36,522 nt of DNA from positions 1 to 36,522 of IMG/VR virus record IMGVR_UViG_3300036766_000019. The stretch is one strand, 5' to 3'. Origin of the DNA: a virus. Made by a program: the position numbers and the translations under genes. Below, in pieces: positions 6,993 to 26,422 of this stretch; the first letter of the stretch is position 1; the number at the start of each line of letters is the position of its first letter. The notes under the pieces are model-generated. The model was not told the origin of the DNA. It saw only the letters and a program-made list of their open reading frames with translations, and searched no databases.

Positions 6993-9900
6993 ATGGCACT
7001 TCAGAAACAAAATATTCCTATCGCCTTTGCTCAAGGAGTTGATACCAAAACTGATGATAAACAAGTAGTTGCTGGCAAATTACTTAATCTTCAAAATGGT
7101 CTCTTTACCAATACTGGCAAAATTAATAAACGAAATGGATTAGATTTATTATCAAATCAAATTGATATTACATTTGACCATATTACTGAAGGTCAAGCTT
7201 TATCTACTTATCAAGATCAATTACTATTATTTAATGGTAAGAAAGCATTCTCTAAATTAGAATATAATGAACATTGGTTAGATAAAGGAAGTGTTTCATC
7301 TGTTATTAACAGTACTTTTCAAGTAATTAGGAATGAACATCAACAATTCAATACATCTTCGGCCAAGATTAGTGATTTAGAATGTTATGTTTGGGAAGAT
7401 TCACGAGGCGGGATTAGATACAGTGTGGTGGATTCCATAACGGGCAATTTCCTGGTTGCAGACAAAGTTATAAATAGCAGTGGCGACCGTCCTGCTGTCC
7501 TGGCATTACCTGCCACTGAAAACCTCGCCAGTCAATTTGTAATATTGTATACCAATGGAACCAGCATTCAACTTAATAGAGTTTTTACTGATGCCATCCA
7601 AATATTAAAACCAGTAGAAACTGCAGCTTCAGATTTGCATGAGAATCATGTTTATGATGCTTGTTTAACAAGTAGTTTAACTTATGTAGATAATATCTTA
7701 ACAGCAGCTCATAATAATATTTATTTAGGATATGCAGCTCGTTATAATAGTAGTTTAATTTTTAAGACTCCAAGAGTTATTAAGATTGATTCTGATAATG
7801 TTGAACCTGCAACTTTAGATTTAAGTTTTGTAGTAATAGAAAATGTCAATACTGATGGTTATCAAGCACCAAGGATTATTAGTTTAACAGCATTGGGAGA
7901 TATTTCATTTGGTCAAGCCGGTGCAGCTGCACCTGGTGCTGCAATGATATGGACTACATTATCTTCTATGTGGATTGCTAAAGTGGTAACTTACTATGTA
8001 GGACCATTAGTTCCATTACAAATTACAACACCTTCTACCAATTTTACTATTAGTGAATTAAATAAGATTTCCTTTATCTGGAATGATAGGCCATTTGATG
8101 ATCGAGTTTCATTTCAAATCTTTATGGAATTTGCTAAACCAGAAGAATATCATTATTATGTTAAAGCATGTAAATTAAATGTTTATCTACATGGAGAGTT
8201 TTTAGCTGTAACTCAATTATTTGATATTAAACTTAAAAGAGGAATAGGATTACATTCTAAACCATTTGTTCAAAATGATGTGCCATATATAGTAGCAATT
8301 CATCAATCTAATATAGATTCTACTTTAGATTTACAATCAACTTATTTTATTCTTAATGATCAATTAGAAGTTATTTCTAAAGTAAATGATAATGTATCGG
8401 GTGGTATTGATGATAAACTATGTAATATAGTATTTGATGGATACACTTATAGTAAAGCTCTTACTAAAGAAGGTGAAGATGGATATTTATATTCTCAACA
8501 TTTTCCAGTTAGCAATGGTATTTTTAACTTTGCCTCATTAAAGAAAGGTAAGCTTCAATCAGCAGATAACACGACATTTTCATTAACTGGAGTAACCAAG
8601 ATTGAATTGGATTATGTTTCCAAGAGTCATTTCTCTTCAGCTAATCTAAATGATAATCTTTATGTTATAGGTGGAATTCTTCAGAATTACGATGGAAGTC
8701 AATTCTTTGAGAATAACTTTCATTTATATCCAGAAAATGTTTCATTAGATAATACATTAATGGATGTAACAGTAACTACAACTGGAACTTCTATTGTTGC
8801 ACAAGTCAGTGCCTTTCAAATGGTTGCTGCCACTCGCATTGATCCAGGACAATATTTCACAATTAACACAGCAGTAAATATCGATAGATATTATGTTTGG
8901 TATAAAATAGATGGAATTGGAACTGATCCTGTATTAGCTGGTAGAACTGGATTACAGGTAGATATTAATTCTTATGATGATGGATATACTGTTACAACTA
9001 CAACAGCAACAGTTTTGGCTTTAATATCAGATTTTATCATTCATGCCAATAATACCAATCCTCCATTATTGGTAATAACGAATGCATCTGCTGGTGCTAC
9101 TGGAATACCAACCATTGGAAACATTACAGAAGGTAGTATCTCAAATGGAACCTATTCTTATTTAGCTCTTTGGAAATGGATTGATAACCAAGGTAGAACT
9201 CATCGCAGCACTACTTCAGTGCCTAAACAAATTGTTATCTCCAACGGACTAACAACTAATAGTATTTCTGTCAAGATGCCAATTCTAGATTTAACTAAAA
9301 AAACTGGTATCACATTAGAAATCTATCGAACTGAAGGTAATGGACAAGGAGATTTATTCTATAAAGTAACTCCTCTATTTAATCCAATTACATTAATATC
9401 ATCAACTAATCCAAATATTACAGATGTTTATTTTATTGATACTATGTCAGATGCTGATTTAATTTCCAATGAATTAGTTTATACGACTGGTGGAGTTTTA
9501 GATAATGGCAGTGCATCTGCTTGCTCTATCATTACAACCTTTAAAAACAGGTTATTTATTGCAGGATTAGCAGATAAGAATAAAATTAATTACAGTAAAA
9601 TCTTATCACCAGATGATATTAACTTTGCTGTGGGATTTAATGAAATTTTTAGTAAAGAATTAGATAATAGAGGTGGAATAATAGTTGCATTAGCTCCAAT
9701 GGATGATAAATTGATTATCTTTAAGACTAATCAAATCTTTTTCATTAGTGGAGATGGACCAAATAACATTGGACAAGGAGATTTCTCCGAACCTCAACTA
9801 ATTACTACAGATGTTGGCTGTGATAATGTTAATTCCGTAGTCTTTAGTCCTATTGGATTAATATTTAAGTCTTCAAAAGGTATTTATCTATTAGATAGAT

Positions 9901-10619
9901 CATTACAAGTTAAATATATTGGTGCTCCTGTAGAGAAATTCAATGATTTAACTATCAGTTCAGTAGTATTATTGAGCAGTAAGAATCAAATTAGATATAT
10001 TACTGAAGATGGAGTGGCATTAATTTATGATTATTTCGTAGATCAATGGGGAACATTCACTAATTATCAAGGAGTTGATTGCGATTTATATAAGAATTCC
10101 TTTATTTTATTGAGAAGTGATGGTAGAACCTTCCAAGAAAACACAGATTCCTTTAGTGATGAGACTAATACTGGAAATACTCAACACATTCCATTAGTTT
10201 TAGAAACATCTAATCTTTCTTTAAGTGGATTAAATGGATTTCAAAGAGTATATCGAGTTGAAATACTTGGAGAATATAAAGGCGCACATCATGGAATTGT
10301 TAGTTTCGCATATGATTACTCACCAATTTATACAGATTCGGCATCATTTGATGGATATGATGTAATTGGACAATTCTCTTATGGTGCTATTGGACCATAT
10401 GGAGAGACAGATGGAGATGTATATGGAGGAAATTATATTCCATATCAGTTTAGGATTCATTTAGCACAACAGAAATGTTCAGCAATTAGGATAAAAGTGG
10501 AAGATACACAATCAGCACCATTCAATGAAGGCTTTAATATTTCAGCAATTACATTACAAGCTGGAATGAAGACTGGTCTTAACAAATTGCCAGCTAATAA
10601 AAATGTAGGGAGTTCATAA
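6993..10619 (+). CDS. Tail nozzle-like protein (1208 aa)
   Basis: This is the longest gene in the genome. The start (IPIAFAQGVDTKTDDKQV, then LLNLQNGLFTNTGKINKRNG, residues about 9-50) is the characteristic opening of podovirus nozzle or tail tubular B-type proteins, where a first strand is followed by N-x-x-F-x-x-x-G-K-x-x-K-R-x-G-x-x-x-L. The remainder is beta-rich and consistent with the propeller-like architecture of T7 gp12/P22 gp10-type nozzles, but is longer than those (about 470-800 residues), perhaps from inserted domains around residues 590-760. ILSPDDINFAVGFNEIFSK (about 868-886), followed by LIIFKTNQIFFISGDGPNN, is another pattern I associate with this group. It follows the adaptor/fibre genes and overlaps the next gene TAATG. 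Five DGY tripeptides occur. Confidence 0.68.
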   Translation: MALQKQNIPIAFAQGVDTKTDDKQVVAGKLLNLQNGLFTNTGKINKRNGLDLLSNQIDITFDHITEGQALSTYQDQLLLFNGKKAFSKLEYNEHWLDKGSVSSVINSTFQVIRNEHQQFNTSSAKISDLECYVWEDSRGGIRYSVVDSITGNFLVADKVINSSGDRPAVLALPATENLASQFVILYTNGTSIQLNRVFTDAIQILKPVETAASDLHENHVYDACLTSSLTYVDNILTAAHNNIYLGYAARYNSSLIFKTPRVIKIDSDNVEPATLDLSFVVIENVNTDGYQAPRIISLTALGDISFGQAGAAAPGAAMIWTTLSSMWIAKVVTYYVGPLVPLQITTPSTNFTISELNKISFIWNDRPFDDRVSFQIFMEFAKPEEYHYYVKACKLNVYLHGEFLAVTQLFDIKLKRGIGLHSKPFVQNDVPYIVAIHQSNIDSTLDLQSTYFILNDQLEVISKVNDNVSGGIDDKLCNIVFDGYTYSKALTKEGEDGYLYSQHFPVSNGIFNFASLKKGKLQSADNTTFSLTGVTKIELDYVSKSHFSSANLNDNLYVIGGILQNYDGSQFFENNFHLYPENVSLDNTLMDVTVTTTGTSIVAQVSAFQMVAATRIDPGQYFTINTAVNIDRYYVWYKIDGIGTDPVLAGRTGLQVDINSYDDGYTVTTTTATVLALISDFIIHANNTNPPLLVITNASAGATGIPTIGNITEGSISNGTYSYLALWKWIDNQGRTHRSTTSVPKQIVISNGLTTNSISVKMPILDLTKKTGITLEIYRTEGNGQGDLFYKVTPLFNPITLISSTNPNITDVYFIDTMSDADLISNELVYTTGGVLDNGSASACSIITTFKNRLFIAGLADKNKINYSKILSPDDINFAVGFNEIFSKELDNRGGIIVALAPMDDKLIIFKTNQIFFISGDGPNNIGQGDFSEPQLITTDVGCDNVNSVVFSPIGLIFKSSKGIYLLDRSLQVKYIGAPVEKFNDLTISSVVLLSSKNQIRYITEDGVALIYDYFVDQWGTFTNYQGVDCDLYKNSFILLRSDGRTFQENTDSFSDETNTGNTQHIPLVLETSNLSLSGLNGFQRVYRVEILGEYKGAHHGIVSFAYDYSPIYTDSASFDGYDVIGQFSYGAIGPYGETDGDVYGGNYIPYQFRIHLAQQKCSAIRIKVEDTQSAPFNEGFNISAITLQAGMKTGLNKLPANKNVGSS

Positions 10620-11734
10620 TGGCAATCGCTGGTCAAATTACTTATGATTTATTCAATAGCACTTCCATCGCTACTACGACAGATGGAACAACACTAACTA
10701 CTATTTATACAGCGCCAGCCTTTCAAGCTATCAATGGTGGGGCTGCAATTACATTAGATATTGTTGGCAATGATTTTGCCAATGATTTAATAGCAACATC
10801 TAAAATCTATGTTATGTTAAAAAATGTAGATGGTTATCCAGCTATGGTAGGTAATCCTGCTCATTTAGTGCCATTTGCTATTGGATCAAGTGATGAGTTA
10901 AAGACTTGTTCAGTAATTGTAAATATTTCTGGAACCAATATAACTGTTAAAGTATTAGGAGTTCCTGGTCATACTATTAAATGGACTTGTGCCAGAGATC
11001 CATCTCTATCAGTATTAGATCCTTGGACATCTGTTCCAGTTCCAAATGATGGAACTGTTTTAACTTGGTCAGCAGCAAATTCTCGTTGGGAACCAAATGT
11101 ATTTTCTGTTGCTAGTGTTGGATCTTTTGATATTCAAGGTCAAGTTGATAATGCATTACAAATTATCTCTAATATTTTATATGCTCAATCTGCTACTTTA
11201 GAAAAGCCAGGTATGGTTAATACGGGTGAGCAAACATTTGGTGGTAATAAAACATTCGGAAGTATAGCATCAGCTTCAGTAGTTTCAGTTCCAGGTGCTG
11301 GAGTTATTAATGTTGGAACAGGTGGAACAGGTGGAATTACAATATTTGGTACTAATGGATTAAATTGTGTTCATGGATCAACTTTAGGAAGTGAAGGTAG
11401 TCATAGTGATAATTTTAATGCAATTTATGGAGCGTTAATAACTGATCATTTTAATTTATCTGCCAATTTAAATTTATCTTCAGGTGGAGATGGTTATTAT
11501 GTAATTTTAGTAGATACAACATCTGCTAGATCAATTACATTACCAAGTCCTGCAGCTGCTGGTAGAACTTTAATTATTAAAGATAAAAGTGGAACTGCTG
11601 CCACTCATAATATTACAATCATTAGAAATGGTTCAGAGAAAATTGAAGGAACAGCAGCAAGTTATGTAATGAATACTAATTTCAAAAATATTAAACTAAT
11701 ATCAGATGGCGCCGATTGGTGGATTATAGGTTAA
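10619..11734 (+). CDS. Tail fibre protein, first of a tandem paralogous pair (371 aa)
   Basis: The first 160 residues (MAIAGQITYDLF ... VDGYPAMVG ... HTIKWTCARDP ... W-P) align by eye with the first 160 of the next gene, including LKNVDGYP, HLVPFAIGSSD and IKWTC. The C-terminal 65 residues (AGRTLIIKDKSGTAATHNIT ... WWIIG) are the beta module also present in genes at 5458, 11736 and 24866. The middle is Gly/Ala-rich beta shaft. A receptor-contacting or attachment fibre is likely. The gene starts TAATG on the nozzle gene and so is translationally coupled. Confidence 0.65.
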   Translation: MAIAGQITYDLFNSTSIATTTDGTTLTTIYTAPAFQAINGGAAITLDIVGNDFANDLIATSKIYVMLKNVDGYPAMVGNPAHLVPFAIGSSDELKTCSVIVNISGTNITVKVLGVPGHTIKWTCARDPSLSVLDPWTSVPVPNDGTVLTWSAANSRWEPNVFSVASVGSFDIQGQVDNALQIISNILYAQSATLEKPGMVNTGEQTFGGNKTFGSIASASVVSVPGAGVINVGTGGTGGITIFGTNGLNCVHGSTLGSEGSHSDNFNAIYGALITDHFNLSANLNLSSGGDGYYVILVDTTSARSITLPSPAAAGRTLIIKDKSGTAATHNITIIRNGSEKIEGTAASYVMNTNFKNIKLISDGADWWIIG

Positions 11735-11735
11735 T

Positions 11736-13247
11736 ATGGCAATTAACGGACAAATTAGTTTAGATTTTACTTCTACGGTAGGAACCACTACTGACAGTGC
11801 AACTCTAACTACTATTTTTAGTGAAAGAGCCTTTTTAGCCAATAATGGTGGGCAGACTACTACATTAGAAATTGTAGGATATGATTTAACTAATTTTGAA
11901 GTAGCAACTTGTAAAATCCATATTCAATTAAAGAATGTAGATGGTTATCCAGTTATTGTTGGAACTCCATCTCATATAGTTCCATTTACTATTGGTTCAA
12001 GTGATGCATTAAAAGGATGTATTGCTAATGTTAATATTAATGGAATCAATTTACGAGTTCAGATATTAGGAATAGCTGGAAGAACTATTAAATGGACTTG
12101 TTCCAGAATACCAGCAACTTCTGTTTTAGATAACTGGACGGCAGTTCCTCCAGCATTAGATGGTTATATTAATATTTGGAATGGAACTTTACTCCGTTGG
12201 GAACCAAAGATTATTGGTAATAATCTTATTGCAGGTGCTACGGTAGGTGGAGATTTATCAGGAACTTTACCTAATCCTACTGTTATTGGATTAAGAACTA
12301 AATCTTTAAACTCTTCATTAGCAAGTATAGGAAGTGCTCAAGATGGATATGCCTTAACTTGGGATAATACTGATGGCTATTGGAAAGCCTTACCGACTGC
12401 AATTCAATTTATTGCAGGAGGAGATTTAAGTGGAACATCTATTTCTCAAAATGTAATTAAAATTAGGAACAATGCAGTTAAAGCAGAAACTCTTGGAGCA
12501 TCTCAAGATGGTTATGCATTAACTTGGGTGAATACTAATAACGAATTCGAAGTAAAACCAATTATAGCTTCTAGTAGTGCGCCTTCTGGAGTAGCAGGTG
12601 GTGATTTAGCAGGAACTTATCCTAATCCTACTGTTAAAACAATAACTGGTAAGTATCAAGTTAATCCATTATTATCAATAATAAATCTTGGAGATAATAG
12701 TATTAGTACAGCTAATATTACTTTAACACCTTTTTCTAGTAGTAGTGCTTTAATATTATCAAGTGGGTCAGAAAATGATTTAGGGTTAGGTGGTGGTCAT
12801 AATGTACTCATTACGGCCGGAACCGGATATTCAGTAATAGTTGGTGATGGAACTACTACTCAAGTAGTAATTAAAAATGGTGGTGGAATTGCAAGTATGA
12901 CATTTAATGGTAGAACCATTAGTTATACTGGAAATTTAATTGGACCAATAGTAAGTCCTGTAACTAATTTTAGCTGTACTGATCAAGATGTAATTATATC
13001 AGTAGGACCAATAACAACAAGTATTACTATTACTCTTCCAGGTGATTTTGATTTTGGAAGATCTATAATAGTTAAAGATGCTACTGGAATAGCTGCTACA
13101 CATAATATTATTATTAATGGAAATGGACACGATATTGGTGGGTTTGGAGCGACATATACTATGAATGTTAATTTTCAAAGTAGGCATTTTGTTGCTACAG
13201 GAATTGCAACCGGACCAAATGCTTTTGCTATATGGAGTATCATTTAA
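11736..13247 (+). CDS. Tail fibre protein, second tandem paralogue (503 aa)
   Basis: The N-terminal domain (1-160) is paralogous to that of the preceding gene. It is followed by GGDLSGTLPNPTV and GGDLAGTYPNPTV modules with QDGYALTW connectors (about residues 168-300), a beta shaft, and the C-terminal module (GRSIIVKDATGIAATHNIII). The two genes are one base apart and the next gene begins directly at the stop. The modular plan fits a trimeric fibre whose parts recombine. No catalytic motif is seen. Confidence 0.65.
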   Translation: MAINGQISLDFTSTVGTTTDSATLTTIFSERAFLANNGGQTTTLEIVGYDLTNFEVATCKIHIQLKNVDGYPVIVGTPSHIVPFTIGSSDALKGCIANVNINGINLRVQILGIAGRTIKWTCSRIPATSVLDNWTAVPPALDGYINIWNGTLLRWEPKIIGNNLIAGATVGGDLSGTLPNPTVIGLRTKSLNSSLASIGSAQDGYALTWDNTDGYWKALPTAIQFIAGGDLSGTSISQNVIKIRNNAVKAETLGASQDGYALTWVNTNNEFEVKPIIASSSAPSGVAGGDLAGTYPNPTVKTITGKYQVNPLLSIINLGDNSISTANITLTPFSSSSALILSSGSENDLGLGGGHNVLITAGTGYSVIVGDGTTTQVVIKNGGGIASMTFNGRTISYTGNLIGPIVSPVTNFSCTDQDVIISVGPITTSITITLPGDFDFGRSIIVKDATGIAATHNIIINGNGHDIGGFGATYTMNVNFQSRHFVATGIATGPNAFAIWSII

Positions 13248-15230
13248 ATGAGTTATGATTCAAAATTAGTTGGAGACGCAACTGGACCATTATCTGCTAC
13301 TGTAGTAGAAAAAATCCAAGGCAATCCTATTAAACCAGAAACTGAAGGATCAGCTCAAGATGGCTATGCATTAACTTGGGTCAATGCCGATGGTTACTGG
13401 GAAGCTAAACCTATTCCAACATCTAGTTCAGTAACATTAACTGGAGATGTTTCTGGAGCCAGCTCTGCTAATACTGTAGATAAATTAAAAGGTAAAAATT
13501 TAGCTGTTTCTATGTCTTCTGTTGGATCAGCTCAAGATGGCTATGTTATCACTTGGATCAATGGAAGCACCGAATATCAAACCAAACCTATTCCAACTCA
13601 AACTGCTACAGGTTCAGCAGGAGGCGACTTATCTGGAACCTATCCTAATCCAACTGTAGCTAAAGTTAGAGGCAATGCTTACAAGGCAGAAACTCCTAGT
13701 TCTGCACAAGACGGTTATGTTCCTACTTGGGTAAATGCCAATAATGAATTTGAAGTTAAAAAAATTCCTGTACAAACAGCTACAGGTTCAGCAGGGGGCG
13801 ACTTATCAGGAACCTATCCTAATCCTACCGTTGCTAAAATTCAAAACAATTCAGTTAAGGCAGAAACTCCAAATTTAGATGGATATGTTTTAACTTGGAA
13901 TCAATCTGATACTCGTTGGGAGTCAAGATTACCACCTGTTGCATCTTATGCTGAAATTTCTTATCCAATATTTCCTTGGGATCCAGGATATACAACAAAT
14001 AAAAATTTATTTGGTGGAAATTCTATAGATACAAATACACAATATCCATTAGTATTTACTGTAGCAAGTATATCTTCACCATTATTAGTAACAACTTTAT
14101 CAAAATATTTTCAAGCAAGTAATAATGGTTATAATGCTAATATTACTTTAATTACTTTAACAGATATAGATTATGTTGGACAATCAGATGGACAATATAA
14201 AATTACTTGGTCTATTTCAATGGATCCAACTATAAATGCCTCTGATCATAGATGGGAAATTGTAGTCTGTGTTAATTATGGTCCTCGAAGCACTCCAGTA
14301 GTATTAGTGAATAGCGGTTCTAGTGGTGGTAATCAGAATTCTGTTTCAGGAACTTGTATTTTAAATCTAAAACATAATGATTTTATTACATTAGGTGTTC
14401 AAAGATCAGCATTAACTAATGATACAAATATTTCAGATGATTTTAAATATAGTTCTGCTTGTTTAGATATGAATCGTATAGCAGCAGATTCTGCTATTAC
14501 TGGAGTAGCACCAGACTCTATTTTTAATAGTGGCCATTTACTTCGTTGGTATAAAGAAAATTATGATGGGGCTGGAACTTATGTAGATGAAACTGGAAAT
14601 TATAATACTACACAAGCTAATGCTGGAGAACAACCATCATCTACAACTATTAATGGTCATACTTGTGCTCATTTTGATGGAGGAGATGCTTTAGCAGTTA
14701 CAAATAATACTAGTTTTGCAAATGCTATTTCATCACCACCACATTTTACAATTTTTGGAGTAGTATCACCAGATGATATTACATTAACTGGTAGTTTATG
14801 GGCTCTTAAATATACTAATCCAGGATTTGATTTACAAATCGATCCAGCTCCTGTTGATACTGGAACTTTTGGACGATTAAAAGGCTGGGTAGGAGCGAAT
14901 ACTCATCCAACTTCTAATTATTATTTAAGTAATGATACGGCCTATACATTTATTATGACTTGGTTTGCTCAAGATGGTGCCGATGGATTCGTTAGAGTTT
15001 ATTTAAATGGAAATCTTTCACATTCTCTAATGTATCAAGTATCAACTTATCCAAGCAATGATAATGGTGATTTGCTTGCTATTGGAGCTGCTATGGGGAC
15101 TGATGAAGCTACAATTAGAAATGGATTTACTGGTAAAATAGGCAATACAGGTTTAGCAGATCGTGTTGCAACTCAAACAGAAATAGCACAACTTCATCGT
15201 TATCTTGCAGATTGGGCCGGTATTGAATGA
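13248..15230 (+). CDS. Tail fibre with C-terminal LamG/lectin-like domain (660 aa)
   Basis: The N-terminal 230 residues hold four successive connector units of the type QDGY-x-TW followed by GGDLSGTYPNPTVAK modules. Residues about 420-655 look like a laminin-G/concanavalin-type jelly roll: the DETGNYNTTQ and AHFDGGDALAV segments (D--GN----G ... f-G-d-l), then FTIFGVVSPDD, then YTFIMTWFAQDGADGFVRVY and GFTGKIGNTGLADRV. Such domains bind carbohydrate, so this is the best candidate for a host-glycan receptor-binding protein. It ends four bases into the next gene (ATGA overlap). Confidence 0.68.
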   Translation: MSYDSKLVGDATGPLSATVVEKIQGNPIKPETEGSAQDGYALTWVNADGYWEAKPIPTSSSVTLTGDVSGASSANTVDKLKGKNLAVSMSSVGSAQDGYVITWINGSTEYQTKPIPTQTATGSAGGDLSGTYPNPTVAKVRGNAYKAETPSSAQDGYVPTWVNANNEFEVKKIPVQTATGSAGGDLSGTYPNPTVAKIQNNSVKAETPNLDGYVLTWNQSDTRWESRLPPVASYAEISYPIFPWDPGYTTNKNLFGGNSIDTNTQYPLVFTVASISSPLLVTTLSKYFQASNNGYNANITLITLTDIDYVGQSDGQYKITWSISMDPTINASDHRWEIVVCVNYGPRSTPVVLVNSGSSGGNQNSVSGTCILNLKHNDFITLGVQRSALTNDTNISDDFKYSSACLDMNRIAADSAITGVAPDSIFNSGHLLRWYKENYDGAGTYVDETGNYNTTQANAGEQPSSTTINGHTCAHFDGGDALAVTNNTSFANAISSPPHFTIFGVVSPDDITLTGSLWALKYTNPGFDLQIDPAPVDTGTFGRLKGWVGANTHPTSNYYLSNDTAYTFIMTWFAQDGADGFVRVYLNGNLSHSLMYQVSTYPSNDNGDLLAIGAAMGTDEATIRNGFTGKIGNTGLADRVATQTEIAQLHRYLADWAGIE

Positions 15231-15610
15231 AAATTAGAAAAGCAGATTTAACAACGGATTTACAGCAATTAAGAGGCTGGATGGAGAAATGGCAAATGAC
15301 AACTCTTCCAGATTGGTGGTATCCTGAAGACAACTATATGATTGATGGCATTATATTTGCATCATATTATAAAACTAATAGTAAGTTAGCATATTTAGAG
15401 AATATAGTATCTAATCCAGATTGCATTAAAGAAGATAGATATAAAGCTGTAGAATTAATATCTAAACATATATTTAAGCAAGCTAAAGAAGATGGATTTA
15501 ATTTAGTTTGTGGTTGGACTAATAACAAAAGTATTATTAAGAATTGTAATCAACATGGTATGCATGCAAGCAAGCCAGAATATAGTGTTCTAATAATGGA
15601 TGTGAGGTAA
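15227..15610 (+). CDS. GNAT-like acetyltransferase-fold protein (127 aa)
   Basis: The 127-residue product starts MKIRKADLTTDLQQLRGWME and has the alternating strand-helix pattern of small GNAT-fold proteins. The final part (IFKQAKEDGFNLVCGWTNNK then NCNQHGMHASKPEYSVLIMD) is like the last GNAT strands. A clean Q/R-x-x-G-x-G/A acetyl-CoA motif is not visible, so it may be a degenerate structural relative. Comparable GNAT-like proteins occur beside fibre and ejection genes in several phages. Role unknown. Confidence 0.5.
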   Translation: MKIRKADLTTDLQQLRGWMEKWQMTTLPDWWYPEDNYMIDGIIFASYYKTNSKLAYLENIVSNPDCIKEDRYKAVELISKHIFKQAKEDGFNLVCGWTNNKSIIKNCNQHGMHASKPEYSVLIMDVR

Positions 15611-15612
15611 CT

Positions 15613-18237
15613 GTGGGATTAGGCGATCTTGGCGTAACAAAAGCAATTTTTGGTTCTGGTTCTTCACCTGGTGTGATGGGAACCGGACAACAGCGTTTTC
15701 CTCAAAGTCCAGTTGGTAATACCAAAAAAGATGCTAATGGTAATACTGTTTATCAAATGCCAGCTGACTCTAAAAGAGCGGAAGCATATCTTAATGGAAC
15801 TGATCCTGGTGATCCAGTTTATGAAGAAGATCCATATAAAGCTTGGCAAGATCCTCAAGCAGATGCTCGTCGTGCTCAATTAAATGCACAAACTGCTAAA
15901 TATGAAGGTCGTGCAGCTCCTACTATGGGAGCAGCTCAAACTGATTTGAATGCATTAGAAAGAACTCAAGGCGCTACTATTGGTAATGCTGAAAGATTTG
16001 GTGGAGTTGGAGCTGGTAATGCTGTTCAAGGACAACAAGCTCAATTAGGCAATGCAGAACGAGTTGGCAATATCAATATTGGACAAGCTCAAGGATATGG
16101 TGGAGCACAAGTTGATCCAGCAGCACAAGCTCGAGCAGCACAATTAAGCCGACAAGATGCACAATTTAGAGCAGGTCAAACTGGTTTAATGTCTCAATTA
16201 CAAGAACAAGCAGCTGGAAGAGGACCTTCTTTAGCAGAAGGTCAATTACGATCTGCTGCAGAGAGAAATATCTCTCAACAAGCAGGTTTAGCAGCAGCAC
16301 AAGGTGGTAATCCAGCTTTAGCTCAACGTAATCTTTCTATGGAAGCAGCTAATGTAAATCAGAAAACTGCATCTGATGCTGCTCAAATGAGAATTCAAGA
16401 ACAATTAGCAGCTAGACAACAATTAGCAGGAGTAGCTCAAACTGGCAGAGAACAAGATATTAATGTCGCTAATGCACAAGCTCAACTCCAACAGCAAACT
16501 GCTCTGGCTAATCAGGCTGCTCTTAATAGTCGTTCTGCTCAACAAGCTGGTCTATCTCAACAAGCTGGTCTATTTACTGCTGGTGCTATGAATGATAGAC
16601 AATTACAACAAGCTCAATTAAATGCTCAATTATCTTTAGCTAATCAAGGTGCTGGAAATCAATTTGCTTTACAGCAAGGTCAATTTGGACAGCAAATGAG
16701 TCTTGCTAATATGGCTGCACAAAATCAACAGAATCAATTTAATGCAGGACAATATCAACAAGCTGGATTAGCAAATCAACAATATGCTAACCAATTTGCA
16801 TTGCAACAAGCAAATCTAAATCAACAATCTAATTTAGCTAATCAGCAATATTATAACCAAGGAATGTTTGGTAATACTGGATATCAACAACAAGCTAATC
16901 AAGCAAACTTGCAAGCTAATTTACAGCAACAATCTTTGAATGATGCTATGTCCAGATACTTTACTGAAGCTGGTTTAGGATTAGATGCAAGACAACAACA
17001 AGCGATGATGGGTTATCAAGGATTACAGCAACAAGCTAATCTTGGATATGGTGGATTATCTCAAAGAGGATATGAAGGTGCCAGAGAAGGCATTGGTGGT
17101 TTTATGTCAGGAATAGGACAAGCCTTTGGAGCTGTTGCAGGTTCTGACGAAGAAATTAAACAATCTGTTACACGAGGTGAAGATAAGATTGGAGATTTCT
17201 TAAATCAATATATGAATGGAATAGAGCATCTTTCTAGTGAATATCAATTACCAGAAAAAGAACAACATTCATCTAATCCAGCTGGAGCATTAATTGGTAA
17301 AGTTGGAAGTAAAATTGCTACTTCTGATGAAAAGGCAAAAGATTTAAGTGCTGAAAATAGTAAATTAAAATCTACTATGACAGGTATTGGTATGGCTATA
17401 GGTGGAGGAAGAAATAATCCTCAAGCACAACAAGCACAATCGGGAGGATTCTTTGGAGGTATGGCGCCTGGATTAAAAACAGCAGCAGATGCTAAACCTA
17501 ATTCTTTTGTGAAGCCAGTAGATATCTCTAATACTAATACTAATCCAATAATGAATAATCCTAATGCTGCAATTGCTATGCCTGGTGGCACTGCTATGCC
17601 AGGTGGAATGAGTCCAACTAATTTGAATGGAACTGCTGATATTCAAAGACAAAATCCTTATGGATTTGCAGCACCACAACAAACTTGGAGTGCTTCTCAA
17701 ATGCCAGTCTATAATCCTCCTGCTGTTGGTAATATGGATATTACTCATATAGATCCAAATGATACGCAAACTTGGTCAGATAAGAATGTTAAATCATATT
17801 CTCCAGCTGGAATGAAACAAGGCATTACATCGGGAAATATGCAAATTTCTAATTTCTTAAATACTCTAAAAGGAGCTGGTGCAAATCCAATATCTGGACC
17901 AGCATCTGCGGCATTTGATCAATCTTCTTTCAATAATCCATTAAGTGAAATGTCTGATGAAAAGACCAAAATTGCCAATTTCCTAGATAAACAGCATGCT
18001 TATGAATATGAATATAAACCAGAATATAAAGATTTACCTGGAGCTGGAGAAGGAAGATATGTATCTCCAATGGCACAAGATTTACAAAAGACAGATTTAG
18101 GCAAATCAATGGTTAAGCCTGGACCTGATGGTAAATTACAAGTAGATTATGGTAAAGGTTTCGGAACTTTATTAGCATCACAAGCATTTTTAAATGAAAG
18201 ACTTAATGAATTAGAAAGTAAGAAAGGTAAAAAATAA
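15613..18237 (+). CDS. Gln-rich virion protein with four S74-type Ser-Lys motifs (874 aa)
   Basis: It begins at GTG (15613) with GAGG 5 nt upstream. Residues about 90-500 are dominated by Gln/Ala/Asn/Leu with an approximately 11-residue recurring pattern (LANQ-x-x-NQFALQQ), suggesting a long helical or coiled region. The C-terminal about 95 residues (SDEKTKIANFLD ... YEYEYKPEYKD ... VSPMAQDLQK ... LNERLNELE) match the intramolecular chaperone/autoprotease domain of peptidase family S74, where Ser and Lys five residues apart form the dyad. Here S781 and K786 fit. Three further S-D-x-x-x-K motifs start at residues 511, 571 and 722. It lies first of three large genes (15613-22918) in the position of podovirus ejection proteins, so an internal virion or ejection role is plausible. 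A fibre with chaperone domain is the alternative. Confidence 0.65.
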   Translation: MGLGDLGVTKAIFGSGSSPGVMGTGQQRFPQSPVGNTKKDANGNTVYQMPADSKRAEAYLNGTDPGDPVYEEDPYKAWQDPQADARRAQLNAQTAKYEGRAAPTMGAAQTDLNALERTQGATIGNAERFGGVGAGNAVQGQQAQLGNAERVGNINIGQAQGYGGAQVDPAAQARAAQLSRQDAQFRAGQTGLMSQLQEQAAGRGPSLAEGQLRSAAERNISQQAGLAAAQGGNPALAQRNLSMEAANVNQKTASDAAQMRIQEQLAARQQLAGVAQTGREQDINVANAQAQLQQQTALANQAALNSRSAQQAGLSQQAGLFTAGAMNDRQLQQAQLNAQLSLANQGAGNQFALQQGQFGQQMSLANMAAQNQQNQFNAGQYQQAGLANQQYANQFALQQANLNQQSNLANQQYYNQGMFGNTGYQQQANQANLQANLQQQSLNDAMSRYFTEAGLGLDARQQQAMMGYQGLQQQANLGYGGLSQRGYEGAREGIGGFMSGIGQAFGAVAGSDEEIKQSVTRGEDKIGDFLNQYMNGIEHLSSEYQLPEKEQHSSNPAGALIGKVGSKIATSDEKAKDLSAENSKLKSTMTGIGMAIGGGRNNPQAQQAQSGGFFGGMAPGLKTAADAKPNSFVKPVDISNTNTNPIMNNPNAAIAMPGGTAMPGGMSPTNLNGTADIQRQNPYGFAAPQQTWSASQMPVYNPPAVGNMDITHIDPNDTQTWSDKNVKSYSPAGMKQGITSGNMQISNFLNTLKGAGANPISGPASAAFDQSSFNNPLSEMSDEKTKIANFLDKQHAYEYEYKPEYKDLPGAGEGRYVSPMAQDLQKTDLGKSMVKPGPDGKLQVDYGKGFGTLLASQAFLNERLNELESKKGKK

Positions 18238-20234
18238 TGGCATTATCAGATGAACAAGTAGATGCTATGTTGGCTAAAGGCTTAATAAGCACTGATCTTT
18301 ATGATGCTATGAAAGCAGCCAATGCTAAATCAAGAGATGCTGCTATTCAAAAAGAAGGCAAAAAAGCAGAAGCAGAAGTTAAAACTGCTGAACAACCTGT
18401 TTCTAATCCAACAGTTCATCCTGCTGTTCCTTTAACACAACAAACACCAGAACAAGGCTCTTTATTCGGATTATCTCCAACTCAAATGCTTGCATTAGCA
18501 CAACAAAAGTCTGGTAATCCTCCTTTAACAGCAGATCAAGTAGCAGCTGCTCAAAAGGCAGATGCAGAGAAAAACAATCTTCCAACTGATCAAGTTGTGG
18601 GTGGAAGGCCTCCTCCTTCTGCTTTAACAGCACCAGCAGAAACGCCAGCAGAAACGCCAGCAGAAACAGCTCCTCAAGCTGCTTTAACCTTACCAAAACC
18701 TCAAGGCATTGCTAATCCATATGCTGGTCCAACTGATCAAGAGAAGTATCTTACTCCCGGTGAAAGGGAGCGTAAAACTCAATTAGCTGAAGAAGGAAAT
18801 CTTAAAAAGGATATTGTGGGTCGTGATGTAGGATTACAATCAGGAGAAGATCAACAACTTGCCGAAGTTGCTAAAAGACAATCTCAAGAATATTCTGTAA
18901 TGATTGATCAACAGAATAAAACCAAAGCCAAAGAAAATGAAATTGTTCAACAAAATTTAGATGCATTAAATACCGAATCTAAAGAACTTGGAGCACGAAA
19001 GATTGATCCAACTCGTGGATTTACACATTTACCTTTTGCTAACAAAATGGTAGCTACTATTGGTATGTTTTTAGGAGCTGGTGGAACTCGTAAAGGTGGT
19101 GCTAATCCAGCTGTAGAGACTATTCAAAAATTTATTGATCGTGATATTTCTGCTCAAGAATTTGATATTAAAAATCAAGGAACTTCCATTGAACAGCGTA
19201 AAGGTTTATTGGGAGAAAGAATGAAACAATTTGGTAATCTTGAATTGGCTCGTCAAGCTGCCAAGAAAGATTATCTTGATATGGTTGAAATGAAGGTTAA
19301 AGAGATTTTATCAGGAAATCAATCTGAAAAGACAAGATTAAAAGGTGATGAGTTACTTGCTAATTTACAAGAAGCCAAAGATAAAACTATGTTTGATTTT
19401 AGTCAAACTAATGACCAAAGAAGTCGTGCATTAGCTGCTCAAGCAATGGCAGCACAAGCAGCTGCAAGTGCTAAAATGTATGAAGATTATAAGGCTCGTA
19501 GAGATGCTGGCTTCAAAGTTAATGAAGAAAGAATTAAAGCCGGACTTCCACCTCTTGATCCTTCTCAATTAGCTGGTAATAAACCATATGATTATCGTAA
19601 TGTTAAAGAAGCCGAATATGCTGCTAAAGCTAATGAAGAAAGAGTTAAGGGAGGATTGCCAATTCTTTCTCCTGAACAATTAAGCGGTATTAAACCTTAT
19701 GATTTAAAACCAGCAGATGCTAGTAAAGTTAAAGATGCTAATGAACGAGGAGTAACATTAACATTTGATCCTTATTCTGGAAAAACATTGGGACAACCTC
19801 AACAGTTCATGGCAAGAACTAAAGAAGATGCTGAAGAAATTAAAAAAGGCAATGCTGCAGTAGCTAGAATTGTTAGAAATATTGATCAAATGGAATCTTT
19901 TAGAGCACAACATTCTAATGGTGGATATACACTTGATCGTGATATGGTTGGAAGAGCGAGCGCATTAAGAGCTGATACATTATTAGCTATTAAAGAAGCT
20001 GAAAAGACTGGAGCATTGGATGAAGGTTCAGTTGATGTTATTGGAGGAATGATTCCAAAAGATCCATCTGCTTATGGAGGACCAGGAACTAATGCGCCAA
20101 GTGCTCAATTAGCTCAAACTAGACAAATAGTTCTTTCAAACTCTCAAGATAGATTAAAGAACAGATTATCTCCAACTTCAGTAGCAGAAATGCCTCCAAG
20201 TCCTGATCAATTAGGATTTAAAGCACATAAATAA
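18237..20234 (+). CDS. Putative internal virion/ejection protein (665 aa)
   Basis: It is helical, charged and Ala/Gln/Lys-rich throughout. A Pro-rich linker near residues 120-160 contains three PAET repeats (12-bp tandem units, 18633-18668). Residues about 429-488 hold two copies of a NEER-[IV]-K-x-GLP-x-L-x-P-x-QL-x-G-x-KPYD unit spaced 37 residues apart. No enzymatic motif is recognised. Size, composition and position between two other large proteins and after the nozzle/fibre block match the internal core proteins ejected by podoviruses. It starts TAATG on the previous gene. Confidence 0.58.
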   Translation: MALSDEQVDAMLAKGLISTDLYDAMKAANAKSRDAAIQKEGKKAEAEVKTAEQPVSNPTVHPAVPLTQQTPEQGSLFGLSPTQMLALAQQKSGNPPLTADQVAAAQKADAEKNNLPTDQVVGGRPPPSALTAPAETPAETPAETAPQAALTLPKPQGIANPYAGPTDQEKYLTPGERERKTQLAEEGNLKKDIVGRDVGLQSGEDQQLAEVAKRQSQEYSVMIDQQNKTKAKENEIVQQNLDALNTESKELGARKIDPTRGFTHLPFANKMVATIGMFLGAGGTRKGGANPAVETIQKFIDRDISAQEFDIKNQGTSIEQRKGLLGERMKQFGNLELARQAAKKDYLDMVEMKVKEILSGNQSEKTRLKGDELLANLQEAKDKTMFDFSQTNDQRSRALAAQAMAAQAAASAKMYEDYKARRDAGFKVNEERIKAGLPPLDPSQLAGNKPYDYRNVKEAEYAAKANEERVKGGLPILSPEQLSGIKPYDLKPADASKVKDANERGVTLTFDPYSGKTLGQPQQFMARTKEDAEEIKKGNAAVARIVRNIDQMESFRAQHSNGGYTLDRDMVGRASALRADTLLAIKEAEKTGALDEGSVDVIGGMIPKDPSAYGGPGTNAPSAQLAQTRQIVLSNSQDRLKNRLSPTSVAEMPPSPDQLGFKAHK

Positions 20235-20236
20235 TC

Positions 20237-22918
20237 ATGGCAGATATTTTTTACAAAGGAGAAGTTACAAAAACTTCTGAATTACCACCAGCAGCTATTG
20301 AACCTGATAAAGCATCGCTTCAAGGCTGGGCACCTGAACTAAATGAGCTTTATGATGTCTCTACGGGCAAACCTATTCGCTTGCCAATGGATCAAATTCC
20401 TCAAGCTTTAGTTAATGGAACTGTTGGATTTAAAAAAGGAATTGATATTCCTGTAATTGGTCCTGATGGTATTGCTGGAACTATTCCTTCTGATAATATT
20501 TCTAAAGCCTTAATAGCTGGTTATCAATTAGAAACTCCTCATCAACAAGCTGTCAGAGAATATGTAGCTGCTAATACAGGAATTAAAGGCACTGCCAATG
20601 TAGCAATAGGGCAATTTGCAGATGAAACCTTAATGGGAGTTCCGGAGTTAATTTTTGATAAAACAGCCAGTCCATTAGAAGTTGCCAAGAAGGAAGCTCT
20701 TAAAGAAGATCATCAAATAGCAAATACGACAGCTGGTATAGCTGGTTTTGGTGCTTCTATGTTTGTAGGTGGGCCTTTATTTAAAGGTGCAGGTAAAGGA
20801 GTAGAGAGAGCTATTGTTGGTGGAGTAGAGCGAGGAGCTGAAGAAGTTGCAATTAAAGCAGCTACTGAAGAAGGCACAGCATTAGCTACCAAAGAACTAA
20901 CAAATAGATTAGTAGCAGGAGGAATGGATGCTGCAGCTGCTAAAGCTGCTGCTCCGGGCTTATTGCGTCGAACTGCTGGTAGCATGGCAAGGTATGGTGT
21001 TGAAGGTGCTGTTATTAATGCTCCTACTGCTATTACAGAAGCTAGTCTTGGAGATCCTGCCGAAGCCGCTGAACATCTTGCAGTTGGTATTGGAACAGGA
21101 ATTTTACTTGGTGGATTAGGTCCATTAGGAGGTAAATTTCTAGGATTAACAAAAGAAATGCTTAAATACTCTCCTGATTTTTTGAAACCAGAAAGCTTGG
21201 TTCTTTCGGGAGCAGGTATTGAACGAGCTACAATTAAGAAATTTGGTGGTATTGATAAGTTGGAAAATGCTGGCAAGATTCTTCTTGATGAAGGCGTTGT
21301 CAATAAAGGTATGAAATTCAATACTCTTCAAGAAAGAGTGTCGGATTTTAAAAAAGTTAGTGGTGAAGAAATTGGTAATATTGTTAAAGAAGTAGATCAA
21401 CGCATTGCTACTAATGGACAAAATGCTTCACAACTTTTTGATACAAGTGAAGTATTAACTAAATTAACTGATTTAAGAAAAGAATGGAATGAACCTATTT
21501 TCGTTAAAGAAGTAAAAGAATTAGATAGAATTATTTCTACTGTAAAAAAACGATTACCTGATATTAATAATGAGATAAAAATTGGAGCTAAAGGAGAAGG
21601 TGGAGCTTATGCTTTTATAAATAACACTCCTCGTGGTGTTAATTTTAAAGTAACTGGCACTTTAGCTATGGAAGAGGCTCAAAAACTTAAAGTAATGATT
21701 GGCGATTTATCTAAATGGGACTCTACAGTTAGCTCATCTATTAATGATGTAAGACGCCAAGCATATTTTACAATTAGAGAAGAAATAGATAATGCTATGG
21801 GTCGAGTTTCAGAAGCAACTGGCGATCCAAGTTTAGTCCAACGCTTTGCTAAAGCAAAAGATAATTATAAAGCAGCATCAGATGTTGAATATTTAATAAA
21901 TAATAAAGAAGCACAAATTCATGGAAATAGAATCTTTGGTTTAACAGATTCTATTTGGGGCGGTGGATTAAGTGCTGCAGGAATAGGTGGTGCAATAATA
22001 ACTGGACATTTCACACCTCTTTTACTTCCATTATTAGGAGCTATTGGTAAAAAAGCTTTAGAAAGCACTTATTTAAAAACTACTGTAGCATCTTTCCTTC
22101 ATGGCAGAAGTTTAGGAACAGGTGGTTTATTATTTGCTGAACAAGCAATGAAATATAGTGCTAAACAATTAGATAGAATTCCTGATATTTTAGGTAATGC
22201 CAAAAATGTCTCACCTGCCACAACTTCTCTAGCTGCTATGTCTAGATTTTTAGGTCATAAGGTTGATAAAACTTCTGCCAAAGATAGAAATGAATTACTA
22301 ACAGATTTATCTAAAAAGATAAGTGAATTATCTCTTAATTCACAGCAGACTGCTGATAAATTAGGAAATCTTTCTGCTCCTTTAGCACAAGGTGGAGCGC
22401 CTAAATTATCTCAAGCTTATGTAGAACAACAACTTAAAACTTTTAATTATCTACAATCTATTCTTCCAAATGCTGATAAAACTATTACTCCATTTAAAAA
22501 GAATATTTCTCAAGTCTCTGATCAAGAATTATCAAACTTTGAACATGCATTAAGAATTGTAGATAATCCTTGGAATATCTTGGATTCATTGCAAAATGGA
22601 ACGGTAACTCAAACAGAAGTAGATGTTTTAGCAGCTCTTTATCCAAGTATTTATCGTGAAATGTCTAATAAAATTGCAGAGTTTGCTTATTCGGGCAAAG
22701 CTTCTACCTTATCATATGATTATGATCAAAGATTAAAATTAAGTTTATTCTTGGGAATACATTTAGATCAAAGTTTAGAAAATGTTAATGCCTATCAGCA
22801 GAATTTTGCTGCAGCATCAACTAAACAAGGAAAAGGAACTGGAACTAAATTAAATCTTATTACACCTAAATCTAATCCATATCAAACACCAGTTCAGAAG
22901 TTAATAAGTAGGCATTAA
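20237..22918 (+). CDS. Putative internal virion/ejection protein (893 aa)
   Basis: This large Ala/Gly/Lys-rich protein has an N-terminal beta segment (TGKPIRLPMDQIPQALVNG), a Gly/Ala-rich amphipathic region (residues about 155-300: TAGIAGFGASMFVGGPLFKG, GIGTGILLGGLGPLGGKFLG), and hydrophobic stretches near 573-610 (WGGGLSAAGIGGAIITGHFT). Gly/Ala-rich membrane-active regions in a very large virion protein are typical of podovirus ejection proteins that form a channel across the cell envelope. No lytic transglycosylase Glu motif is seen. It is the last of three large consecutive genes and starts 2 nt after the previous stop. Confidence 0.58.
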   Translation: MADIFYKGEVTKTSELPPAAIEPDKASLQGWAPELNELYDVSTGKPIRLPMDQIPQALVNGTVGFKKGIDIPVIGPDGIAGTIPSDNISKALIAGYQLETPHQQAVREYVAANTGIKGTANVAIGQFADETLMGVPELIFDKTASPLEVAKKEALKEDHQIANTTAGIAGFGASMFVGGPLFKGAGKGVERAIVGGVERGAEEVAIKAATEEGTALATKELTNRLVAGGMDAAAAKAAAPGLLRRTAGSMARYGVEGAVINAPTAITEASLGDPAEAAEHLAVGIGTGILLGGLGPLGGKFLGLTKEMLKYSPDFLKPESLVLSGAGIERATIKKFGGIDKLENAGKILLDEGVVNKGMKFNTLQERVSDFKKVSGEEIGNIVKEVDQRIATNGQNASQLFDTSEVLTKLTDLRKEWNEPIFVKEVKELDRIISTVKKRLPDINNEIKIGAKGEGGAYAFINNTPRGVNFKVTGTLAMEEAQKLKVMIGDLSKWDSTVSSSINDVRRQAYFTIREEIDNAMGRVSEATGDPSLVQRFAKAKDNYKAASDVEYLINNKEAQIHGNRIFGLTDSIWGGGLSAAGIGGAIITGHFTPLLLPLLGAIGKKALESTYLKTTVASFLHGRSLGTGGLLFAEQAMKYSAKQLDRIPDILGNAKNVSPATTSLAAMSRFLGHKVDKTSAKDRNELLTDLSKKISELSLNSQQTADKLGNLSAPLAQGGAPKLSQAYVEQQLKTFNYLQSILPNADKTITPFKKNISQVSDQELSNFEHALRIVDNPWNILDSLQNGTVTQTEVDVLAALYPSIYREMSNKIAEFAYSGKASTLSYDYDQRLKLSLFLGIHLDQSLENVNAYQQNFAAASTKQGKGTGTKLNLITPKSNPYQTPVQKLISRH

Positions 22919-23328: not shown

Positions 23329-23676
23329 ATGAGAACACAAAACGTTCCTCTTTTCACCAACTTTTCTATGGTGCAAGATGGATATTCAAATCCATTTAAT
23401 TTAGAAATGATAACATCATATAGCATCCAAGCTATGTGGAGTGGCACACCTACAGGTTCTCTCTTAATTCAAGCTTCTAATGATCCTACTACTGTTGGAA
23501 CACCAACTAATTGGACTACTTTAGAACCATCTATTATTAGCACTGGAGGCACTTCTGATAATCATCTATGGAAACAATGTCTTGCACCATTCAAATGGAT
23601 TAGATTTGGATATGTTTTTACAACAGGTTCAGGAACTTTAAATGCAAATCTAAATTGTAAAGGAACTGGTCAATGA
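23329..23676 (+). CDS. Small beta-sandwich tail protein B (115 aa)
   Basis: It shares the plan of the preceding 126-residue protein: a DGY near residue 18, a strand with LIQASNDPTT, a central W, and FKWIRFGYVFTTGSGTLNAN at the end. This suggests a duplication followed by divergence. Probable role is a minor fibre or capsid-surface protein. It overlaps the next gene (ATGA). No enzymatic motif is present. Confidence 0.65.
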   Translation: MRTQNVPLFTNFSMVQDGYSNPFNLEMITSYSIQAMWSGTPTGSLLIQASNDPTTVGTPTNWTTLEPSIISTGGTSDNHLWKQCLAPFKWIRFGYVFTTGSGTLNANLNCKGTGQ

Positions 23677-24866
23677 CAGATAAATATACAGATTTAGATA
23701 ACATAACAACTTCTACTTCTCTACCAGCTAATGTTGCAACTGAATCTACTCAATTAGAGGTAGAAGCAGATTTAGATGCTATCTTAGCTCATCAAACCGA
23801 TGGCTATCAAATAACAGCAGTTTCTAATTTTCCATCTCAACAACATGTAATAGTAGATGGTTATGTTCAAACCAATCCGAATACTATAGTTAGTGGTCAT
23901 GTCTCAATAGATGGCTATGTACAAACCAATCCGAATATTAATGTAAATAACTTTCCGTCTCAACAACATGTAATTGTTGATGGCTATGTGCAGACTAATC
24001 CTAATGTGCTTGTAACAGGAACTGTATCAGTTTCAAATATGATAGCATCTGTAGAGACAGGATTAGCTAAAGATGCTACATTAACTAATGGAAGCCAACA
24101 TACTGTAATAGACGGATATGTTCAAACTAATCCAAATATAACAGGTCATGTAAGTATTGATGGATATGTTCAAACCAATCCTCATGTTATTGTAGATGGT
24201 TATGTACAAACTAATCCGAATGTCATAGTGACAGGAACTGTATCAGTTTCAAATATGATAGCATCTGTAGAGACAGGATTAGCTAAAGATGCTACATTAA
24301 CTAATGGTACTCAACATACAATAATAGACGGATATGTTCAAACTAATCCTAATGTTATTGTAACTGGAACAATTACTGCTAATGCTGGCTCTGGTAATTT
24401 CACTGTAGTTCAAGCCACTGGCACTAATTTACACGCCGTAATAGACGGTTATGTGCAGACTAATCCAAATGTAATTATATCATCTTCTGCTCTGCCAACT
24501 GGTGCTGCTACAGAAGCTACACTAAATGATATTGAAACTGATATTGATTTAATATTAGCTAATCAAACTAATGGTACTCAACATACTATTATAGATGGTT
24601 ATGTTCAGACAAATCCTAATATTATAGTTACATCATCTGTTTTAGCAACTGGAGCTGCTACATCAGCAAAACAAGATACTATAATTACTAATTTACAAAC
24701 ATTAAATTCATTAATTCCATCTACTTATGATTATATTAGTCTTGCTTATACTGGTAATAATCTTACAACTGTTTTATTTAAAAATGGTGGTTCTGGTGGA
24801 ATTTTAATTAGTACTTTAACACTTGATTATTCAGGTAGTCAATTAATTTCGGTAACAAAAACTTAA
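23673..24866 (+). CDS. Repeat fibre protein with nine DGYVQTNP units (397 aa)
   Basis: The whole protein is built from short repeats. DGYVQTNP occurs nine times between about residues 60 and 320, usually as VIVDGYVQTNPN, alternating with NFPSQQHVIV and VTGTVSVSNMIASVETGLAK units. The NFP--Q and VTGTV-VSN elements are familiar from long beta-helical phage proteins. The N-terminus is acidic/Thr-rich; the C-terminal about 60 residues (STYDYISLAYTGNNLTTVLF) form a distinct cap and lack the repeats. The repeat codons differ at many synonymous sites, so the protein pattern is old and selected, while one 77-nt segment is copied exactly. Receptor-binding shaft is the likely role. Confidence 0.66.
   Translation: MTDKYTDLDNITTSTSLPANVATESTQLEVEADLDAILAHQTDGYQITAVSNFPSQQHVIVDGYVQTNPNTIVSGHVSIDGYVQTNPNINVNNFPSQQHVIVDGYVQTNPNVLVTGTVSVSNMIASVETGLAKDATLTNGSQHTVIDGYVQTNPNITGHVSIDGYVQTNPHVIVDGYVQTNPNVIVTGTVSVSNMIASVETGLAKDATLTNGTQHTIIDGYVQTNPNVIVTGTITANAGSGNFTVVQATGTNLHAVIDGYVQTNPNVIISSSALPTGAATEATLNDIETDIDLILANQTNGTQHTIIDGYVQTNPNIIVTSSVLATGAATSAKQDTIITNLQTLNSLIPSTYDYISLAYTGNNLTTVLFKNGGSGGILISTLTLDYSGSQLISVTKT
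24015..24307 (+). repeat. Exact 77-nt direct repeat, two copies 216 bp apart
   Basis: Bases 24015-24091 and 24231-24307 are identical. The offset of 216 nt is 72 codons, so the reading frame is kept. Flanking copies of the same protein repeat have diverged at synonymous sites, which marks this duplication as recent compared with the rest of the repeat array. It is a likely site for expansion or contraction by homologous recombination. Confidence 0.9.
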
Positions 24867-25820: not shown

Positions 25821-26422
25821 ATGTTTCAAATATATTATGTAGAAAACAAAATCAACGGAAAATGTATATTGGACAAACTACTATGCCAATACAAAAAAGG
25901 TGGTATGTTCACAGTAGAGGTGGTTCACACTGTCTTATTCTAAAAAACGCTATCAATAAATATGGAGTAGATAATTTTACCATCAATGTTTTTGAGATTT
26001 ATGGCACACAAGAAGAAGCTGATCAGGCAGAGATTTATTGGATTGAACAATTGAAACCACAATACAATATTAAACAAGGTGGTTCTCGTGGTAAGCACTC
26101 TGAAGAGACTAAAAAGAAAATAGGTCTTGCCTCTTTGGGAAACAAACATGCAGCAGGAATGGCTCCAAACTCTACCTCATTTAAACTTGGACATTCGGCT
26201 CCATCAACAGCTTTTCAAAAAGGAATGGTTCCATGGAATGTTGGTAAGACTTATTTCAATCCAAAAATATCTAAAGCTTTAAAAGGTAGATGTAAATTCA
26301 CGCCAGAACAAATCAATGAAATGAAAAATATGAAACAAAATGGATTATCTGATCGTGCCATTGGTAGGCATTTTAATTGCTCACACCAAACTATTTCGAG
26401 GTTAATAAATGGCATTAGTTAA
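25821..26422 (+). pseudogene. GIY-YIG homing endonuclease, split by a one-base frameshift
   Basis: A strong ribosome binding site (GGAGG, 25811-25815) precedes ATG 25821, which encodes MFQIYYVENKINGK, the first strand of a GIY-YIG domain. That frame stops at 25941. The rest of the domain, MYIGQTTMPIQKRWYVHSRG..., is in another frame from 25862. Joining the frames at the AAAA run (25859-25862) restores the canonical I-Y-Y-x-E-N-K-I-N-G-K-x-Y-I-G-Q-T and a 200-residue protein. Downstream lie a helical region with the E of TQEEADQAEIYWIEQ, the KHSEETKKKIGLASLG nuclease-associated repeat and a C-terminal HTH (NGLSDRAIGRHFNCSHQTISRLING) for DNA binding. Such enzymes are free-standing mobile genes; this one lies between fibre genes. 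It is either inactive, restarted at 25862 (without the first strand) or expressed by -1 slippage. Confidence 0.85.

Follow-up and report, generated by a model that had tools for sequence, protein, structure and literature searches.

The gene analysed here raises the question of why a single virion protein carries four motifs of the peptidase S74 type, and before which of them its chain may be cut. The window, i.e., the whole stretch of DNA analysed, comprises a single virus record (IMGVR_UViG_3300036766_000019; 36,522 bases), in which terminase, portal, major capsid and tail genes are present. On the plus strand, positions 15613..18237 encode an A/Q-rich, putatively ICA-bearing virion protein of 874 aa with a GTG start, which aligned with the ATG start of the relative L001. 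As an earlier note had claimed, the translation contains four S-D-x3-K motifs with the Ser-to-Lys spacing kept, and exactly four, namely SDEEIK at residue 511, SDEKAK at 571, SDKNVK at 722 and SDEKTK at 781. When the residues of the whole protein were shuffled in 20,000 trials, the motif arose in at most 3 copies and never in four, and shuffling of residues 491-874 alone gave 4 copies in 1 of 20,000 trials; chance motif matches were thus ruled out.

The last motif is followed by the ICA body (YEYEYK, VSPMAQDL, VDYG) and a C-terminal zipper-like helix, which together span residues 787-874 (17971..18234, plus strand). This is the single body in the protein, confirming that a full domain body follows the last motif only and ruling out four complete chaperone domains. 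The window domain scored 13.9 bits against PF13884 (Peptidase S74), for which the curated cut-off is 22. The relatives L008, L012, L015 and L016 exceeded this cut-off with 27.7-36.7 bits; across the domain, L008 and the window share 56% identity. A profile built from 21 domains led to the neck appendage chaperone 3gud, whose listed chain begins at the S-D motif, followed by 6f45, a chain of a long tail fibre, and 8jov, a tail fibre chain. The AlphaFold2 model of L008 had a mean pLDDT of 90, and its best PDB matches were the MyRF ICA, 3gud and 3gw6. With VIA-align, this model gave Z values of 6.3-7.4 for 3gw6, 7dc3, 4uw8 and 3gud and 3.3 for the first other entry; these values are middling alone, and the case for the fold consists of the Z gap together with the sequence evidence. 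In a viral structure library, most of the matches that bear a name belong to Peptidase S74, ICA-domain or tail fibre proteins. The Ser-Lys dyad S-x4-K is present at all four motifs of the window protein with the spacing of MYRF S578/K583. S13, D14 and K18 were invariant across 52 aligned members, partly by construction since SD and K at +5 were demanded for membership, except by the aligner. In MYRF and endosialidases, catalysis is by this same Ser-Lys pair, which is linked to trimerisation (PMC3742443). The C-terminal domain is thus very probably of the ICA type, and the S74/ICA likeness that had been noted from the letters alone was borne out by the S74 matches of relatives, the profile match to 3gud and the fold of the L008 model.

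The window domain matched PHROG 4287 (DNA ejection protein) with an E of 1.4e-4 and PHROG 6121 (virion structural protein) with an E of 1.8e-3, both weak matches. L008 matched PHROG 4287 at 7e-4, from its N-terminal part through the ICA domain, and L009 matched PHROG 6121 at 1.4e-14. The full-length window protein had no match in PHROG. When annotated phages and plasmids were searched with tblastn, neither the whole protein nor the core had a relative there, and the ICA domains that turned up were all distant and came for the most part from tail fibres; a scan of genome contigs confirmed no relative. The model of window residues 486-874 was weak (pLDDT 53), with disordered linkers, and was good only over the last ~60 residues. 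In this model, motif 2 stands at the start of a fairly confident predicted helix, as does motif 1 with lower confidence; the model neither displays nor excludes module 1 docked on the body.

We next consider what the motif copies are. The body-motif pattern scan together with earlier loci gave 70 non-redundant domain proteins, and a single SDxxxK was found in 62 of the 70, which agrees, for this sample, with the earlier statement that one domain is the rule among S74 proteins. The ungapped weight matrix used to score motif copies was trained on 15 relatives that have a single site and keep the usual distance from Ser to FL; the window, L001 and L010 were excluded from the training. Note that a short half-module HMM gave near-noise scores, and the weight matrix was compared with shuffles instead. 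Module 1 (17143..17214, plus strand), which consists of SDEEIK (511-516), a spacer and a helix ending in FL, is a complete N-terminal half of the ICA domain. It outscored all 20,000 shuffles, gave a p of ~6e-6 even without the S, D and K columns, and its S-to-FL (Lys-to-helix) spacing is the usual one of the family. Module 3 (17776..17871, plus strand) combines SDKNVK (722-727) with an overlapping half-module, SPAGMKQGITSGNMQISNFLNTLK (730-753), whose register begins at S730 (S730-P-A-G-M-K735), eight residues after SDKNVK; the fit of this register, at SPAGMK, is weak in the window and strong in L001. Motif 2 (SDEKAK, 571-576; 17323..17340, plus strand) lies in a conserved island with a predicted helix and has no recognisable half-module, and motif 4 (SDEKTK, 781-786; 17953..17970, plus strand) is joined to the body by a shortened spacer. 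Neither of these two motifs fits the weight matrix as it stands, and they share an 18-nt direct repeat (89%). The suggestion that the protein holds degenerate duplicates of a chaperone domain therefore stood in part: by the weight matrix, motifs 1 and 3 at least are partial copies, but copies of the N-terminal half-module only and not of the domain.

The spacing and the context of the motifs differ as well. The Ser of motif 4 lies 16 residues from the core strand, the shortest distance of the set (at least 20 in all 68 others measured), and motif 1 is locally normal but ~270 residues upstream. The dyad is thus not joined to the body at the usual distance, and for this reason we file the domain as a variant and not as a plain S74/ICA member. 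An unguided MAFFT alignment, which misplaced L001 and is used here as supporting evidence only, put the family SD on motif 1 and the family body after motif 4. Family members have a strongly hydrophobic 15-mer ahead of the Ser (median 1.1 versus -0.5 for all 15-mers). Directly before motif 1 of the window protein is a hydrophobic Gly/Ala segment (residues 496-510; 17098..17142, plus strand) with a GRAVY of 1.02, near the middle of the family values. Such a stretch precedes sites 1 and 2 of the window and not sites 3 and 4, and in L010 it precedes the last site and not the first. The earlier note had emphasised the last site as domain-like; this emphasis has to be shifted, as it is motif 1 that has the hydrophobic stretch and spacing usual in the family and looks the best candidate for cleavage, and motif 4 is closer to the body than in any of the 68 relatives.

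L001 was the only close relative found (63% identity to the 874-aa protein) and the only one found with four motifs; its sequence ends inside the ICA body. Its motifs stand at matching places (SDEEVK, SDEKAK, SDKGMK and SDERIK), and the Ser, Asp and Lys of all four are conserved. The islands around motifs 1, 2 and 3 were 72, 62 and 68% identical to L001; in the three linkers, the share of identical positions among aligned residues was 17, 38 and 37% (Fisher p for the difference 7e-7, with boundaries set after the alignment was seen). The dN/dS is a rough guide only, dS being ~1.1 and near saturation. Disorder without conservation of Ser and Lys, which had been named as speaking against functional motifs, was not what we found: the linkers are predicted to be disordered, but Ser and Lys are kept in L001.

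Given these motifs, we asked what kind of protein bears them. In ten relatives (L008, L010, L012, L014, L018, L019, L020, L065, L140 and L141), the ICA gene comes after the gene of a ~1000-1200-residue protein, with one small ORF between the two in L008. In these ten, the ICA gene is followed by the gene of a ~520-630-residue protein and, on contigs that extend far enough, by that of a further protein of ~800-960 residues. The order corresponds to T7 genes 12, 14, 15 and 16, and also to P22 genes 7, 20 and 16. In the window, a protein of ~1200 aa (1208 aa; 6993..10619, plus strand) at the T7 gene 12 position is homologous to the ~1000-aa gene directly preceding the ICA gene in relatives, and tail genes intervene between it and the S74 gene. 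The next cassette gene (665 aa; 18237..20234, plus strand), at the T7 gene 15 position, has homologues in L008, L049, L010, L012 and L014, and the third (893 aa; 20237..22918, plus strand), at the T7 gene 16 position, in L008, L049, L019, L010, L144 and L145. The neighbours in the window are thus homologous to the cassette genes of relatives where compared. In those S74-bearing relatives that were scanned, neither Pfam nor PHROG gave a function for the two genes downstream. The earlier placement of the protein where ejection proteins lie agrees with both the cassette order and the neighbour homology, and the protein probably belongs to an ejection cassette.

The N-terminal part of the protein bears on the same question. 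A conserved core with 'GPSxAxxQL' (residues 192-265; 16186..16407, plus strand) is common to the ICA-bearing relatives and to L144 and L145, and its profile also found non-seed members, e.g., L049 (9e-24) and L052 (4e-20). L144 (13124-14119) and L145 (13045-14808) have the same core and the same place but no ICA domain, and end instead in 'NDTVPAxLSPGEIVLPRSVAQ..'. The ICA domain therefore looks, on these sequences, like an exchangeable C-terminal end of a protein family. L002 has part of the A/Q-rich region and encodes an SLT transglycosylase protein downstream. A tail fibre identity is not favoured: the core is A/Q-rich, the gene lies in the cassette, and the core recurs in L144 and L145, which are free of the ICA domain. 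The likeness to T7 gp14 and P22 gp7 lies in the gene position ahead of two larger ejection genes. By eye, P22 gp7 is A/Q/N-rich with a Gly-rich hydrophobic end, resembling residues 1-510 of the window protein, and it is also trimmed, N-terminally and by the host OpdA. T7 gp14 and P22 gp7 differ in size, 181-240 aa (PMC8954989) versus 874 here, and are without the ICA domain. The gp14-like genes adjoin gp15 and gp16, and gp14 is water-insoluble and forms an outer-membrane pore (PMC8954989). The core profile had no significant match to T7 gp14 and P22 gp7, which says little because gp14-like proteins average just 19% identity (PMC8954989).

Other features of the window were recorded in passing. 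Stretches of 'AQDGYALTW' and 'GGDLSGTYPNPTV' are repeated in 10619-15230 and 24866-25777 and are common to several tail-region proteins, and 23673-24866 holds many imperfect 'xIDGYVQTNPN' repeats, with a C-terminus that matches PHROG 26903. A homing-endonuclease-like ORF lies amid tail genes at 25862-26422 (PHROG 314, 5e-23), and a small acetyltransferase-like ORF lies at 31679-32167 (PHROG 3810, weak). The ORF directly before the S74 gene (15227-15610) is by eye like the latter and matches only a PHROG of unknown function.

Arrangements of several or displaced motifs were also found in other branches. Of the three motifs of L010, two are half-modules far from the body; L014 has three in apparent tandem duplications, L018 has two or three, and L019 has two, both of which are kept in its relatives (54-64% identity). 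In L020 and L125, one SD motif is separated from the body by an insertion, and detached SD motifs occur in L018 and L019 as well. Since L010, L014, L018, the L019 group, L020, L125 and L031 carry such arrangements, detachment and multiplication of the half-module is, as read from the sequences, recurrent in several branches, a statement that is not a tree-based count of independent events. L150, L151, L153 and L154 carry an additional third motif after the body.

Some of these loci show further peculiarities. In L150, L151, L153 and L154, the third motif, SDERYK (residue 775 in the L150 frame), stands with 'LSxxxRGAP...YQPIxDASR' after the ICA body and the zipper helix, at the extreme C-terminus. 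One 1286-residue frame of L031 (4221-8078, minus strand) has two separate S74 matches with motifs at 276 and 591, each match with its own S-D motif and MAQ motif. In L099 (1-3159), the S74 domain lies at residues 237-285 and ~770 residues follow in frame, so that the domain is not always C-terminal. Residues 489-529 of L019 gave a weak Gly-zipper_Omp match, below the cut-off, which ends directly before the second SDxRxK.

The best explanation that we can offer, with an even chance of being right, is that of an ejection-type protein with one ICA body and a main cut before Ser511, after which an ejection protein with a hydrophobic end would remain. The N-terminal half-module (S-D-x3-K, a short spacer and a helix ending in FL) would have been multiplied and moved off the body by disordered, Pro/Gly-rich linkers. 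The body and the zipper-like helix would assemble the chains, which are trimers in known ICA domains; the half-module at 511 would dock on the body, and the Ser511-Lys516 pair would cut the chain before Ser511. The C-terminal 364 residues would thereby be lost, and the remaining 510-residue A/Q-rich protein would have the hydrophobic Gly/Ala segment at its end. Up to assembly, this segment may be masked; afterwards it may help insertion into the host envelope, a behaviour that one would expect from a protein like T7 gp14. Of the other motifs, 3 would be a further copy of the half-module, 2 just the motif itself and 4 a shortened copy by the body, and they may dock in place of the first. Cleavage at any site is what we infer from the family; we likewise infer which site is cut and when, how many chains associate and what part the protein plays at the membrane. 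A main cut before Ser511 has, on this analysis, about even prospects, and against it stands motif 4, which adjoins the body and likewise keeps S, D and K. Also on that side are the hydrophobic stretch before the last site of L010, the weak model of residues 486-874, the single, truncated relative with four motifs and the missing match of the core profile to T7 gp14 and P22 gp7.

A cut at Ser781 only, the Ser joined to the body, with motifs 1-3 as relics of internal duplication, would follow the arrangement of the single-site relatives, given that motif 4 alone adjoins the body here, and it would agree with the 18-nt repeat common to motifs 2 and 4 and with the apparent tandem duplication in L014. 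We consider it unlikely, as motif 4 has a spacing outside the range of 68 relatives and no preceding hydrophobic stretch, and motifs 1-3 sit in conserved islands, which would not be expected for relics. That same conservation favours successive self-cleavage, proposed in the earlier note, in which the single body would serve the half-modules in turn, before Ser511, Ser571, Ser722 or Ser730, and Ser781, releasing linker or hydrophobic pieces stepwise. Every motif Ser and Lys is conserved in L001, the islands are separated by diverging linkers, the L019 lineage keeps two sites across 54-64% identity, and sites 1 and 2 are preceded by hydrophobic stretches; however, motifs 2 and 4 fall outside the half-module profile and known ICA domains are cut once, and we give this reading a low probability. 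Its wider form is equally doubtful, namely that stepwise processing of an ejection protein by one ICA body uncovers hydrophobic, membrane-seeking ends in order, at assembly or ejection, and that several phage lineages arrived at this separately. Least probable is a folding or assembly module with no cleavage at all, in which S-D-x3-K would be a structural element, e.g., a helix cap or a docking peptide. Such a role would suit motif 2 at the start of its predicted helix (and motif 1, with lower confidence) and the copy after the body in L150, L151, L153 and L154, where the usual cut would release little, but Ser and Lys are the catalytic pair of MYRF and endosialidases (PMC3742443), and a plain helix cap would have no need for a Lys at +5.

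The proposed reading, if right, would suggest how a membrane-active protein stays in solution up to its assembly. In a narrow literature search, limited to open papers, none was found to join ICA domains with ejection proteins in the manner seen here. ICA domains have been described in tail spikes, in fibres and in MyRF. The present family shares with them the S-D-x3-K at the N-terminal edge, the core strand, the AQ motif, the long C-terminal helix and, in the relative L008, the fold. In this family, from uncultured phages, the ICA domains appear to belong to what is putatively the first ejection protein, and a hydrophobic segment immediately precedes the candidate cut site. The multiplied, detached half-modules amount to a natural experiment on the distance to which a Ser-Lys dyad can be shifted away from its chaperone body. 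The differences from known S74/ICA domains are threefold: the host protein here is A/Q-rich and of the ejection type and not a fibre, a hydrophobic segment stands directly before the Ser, and the N-terminal half-module is multiplied and lies ~240 residues away from the body.
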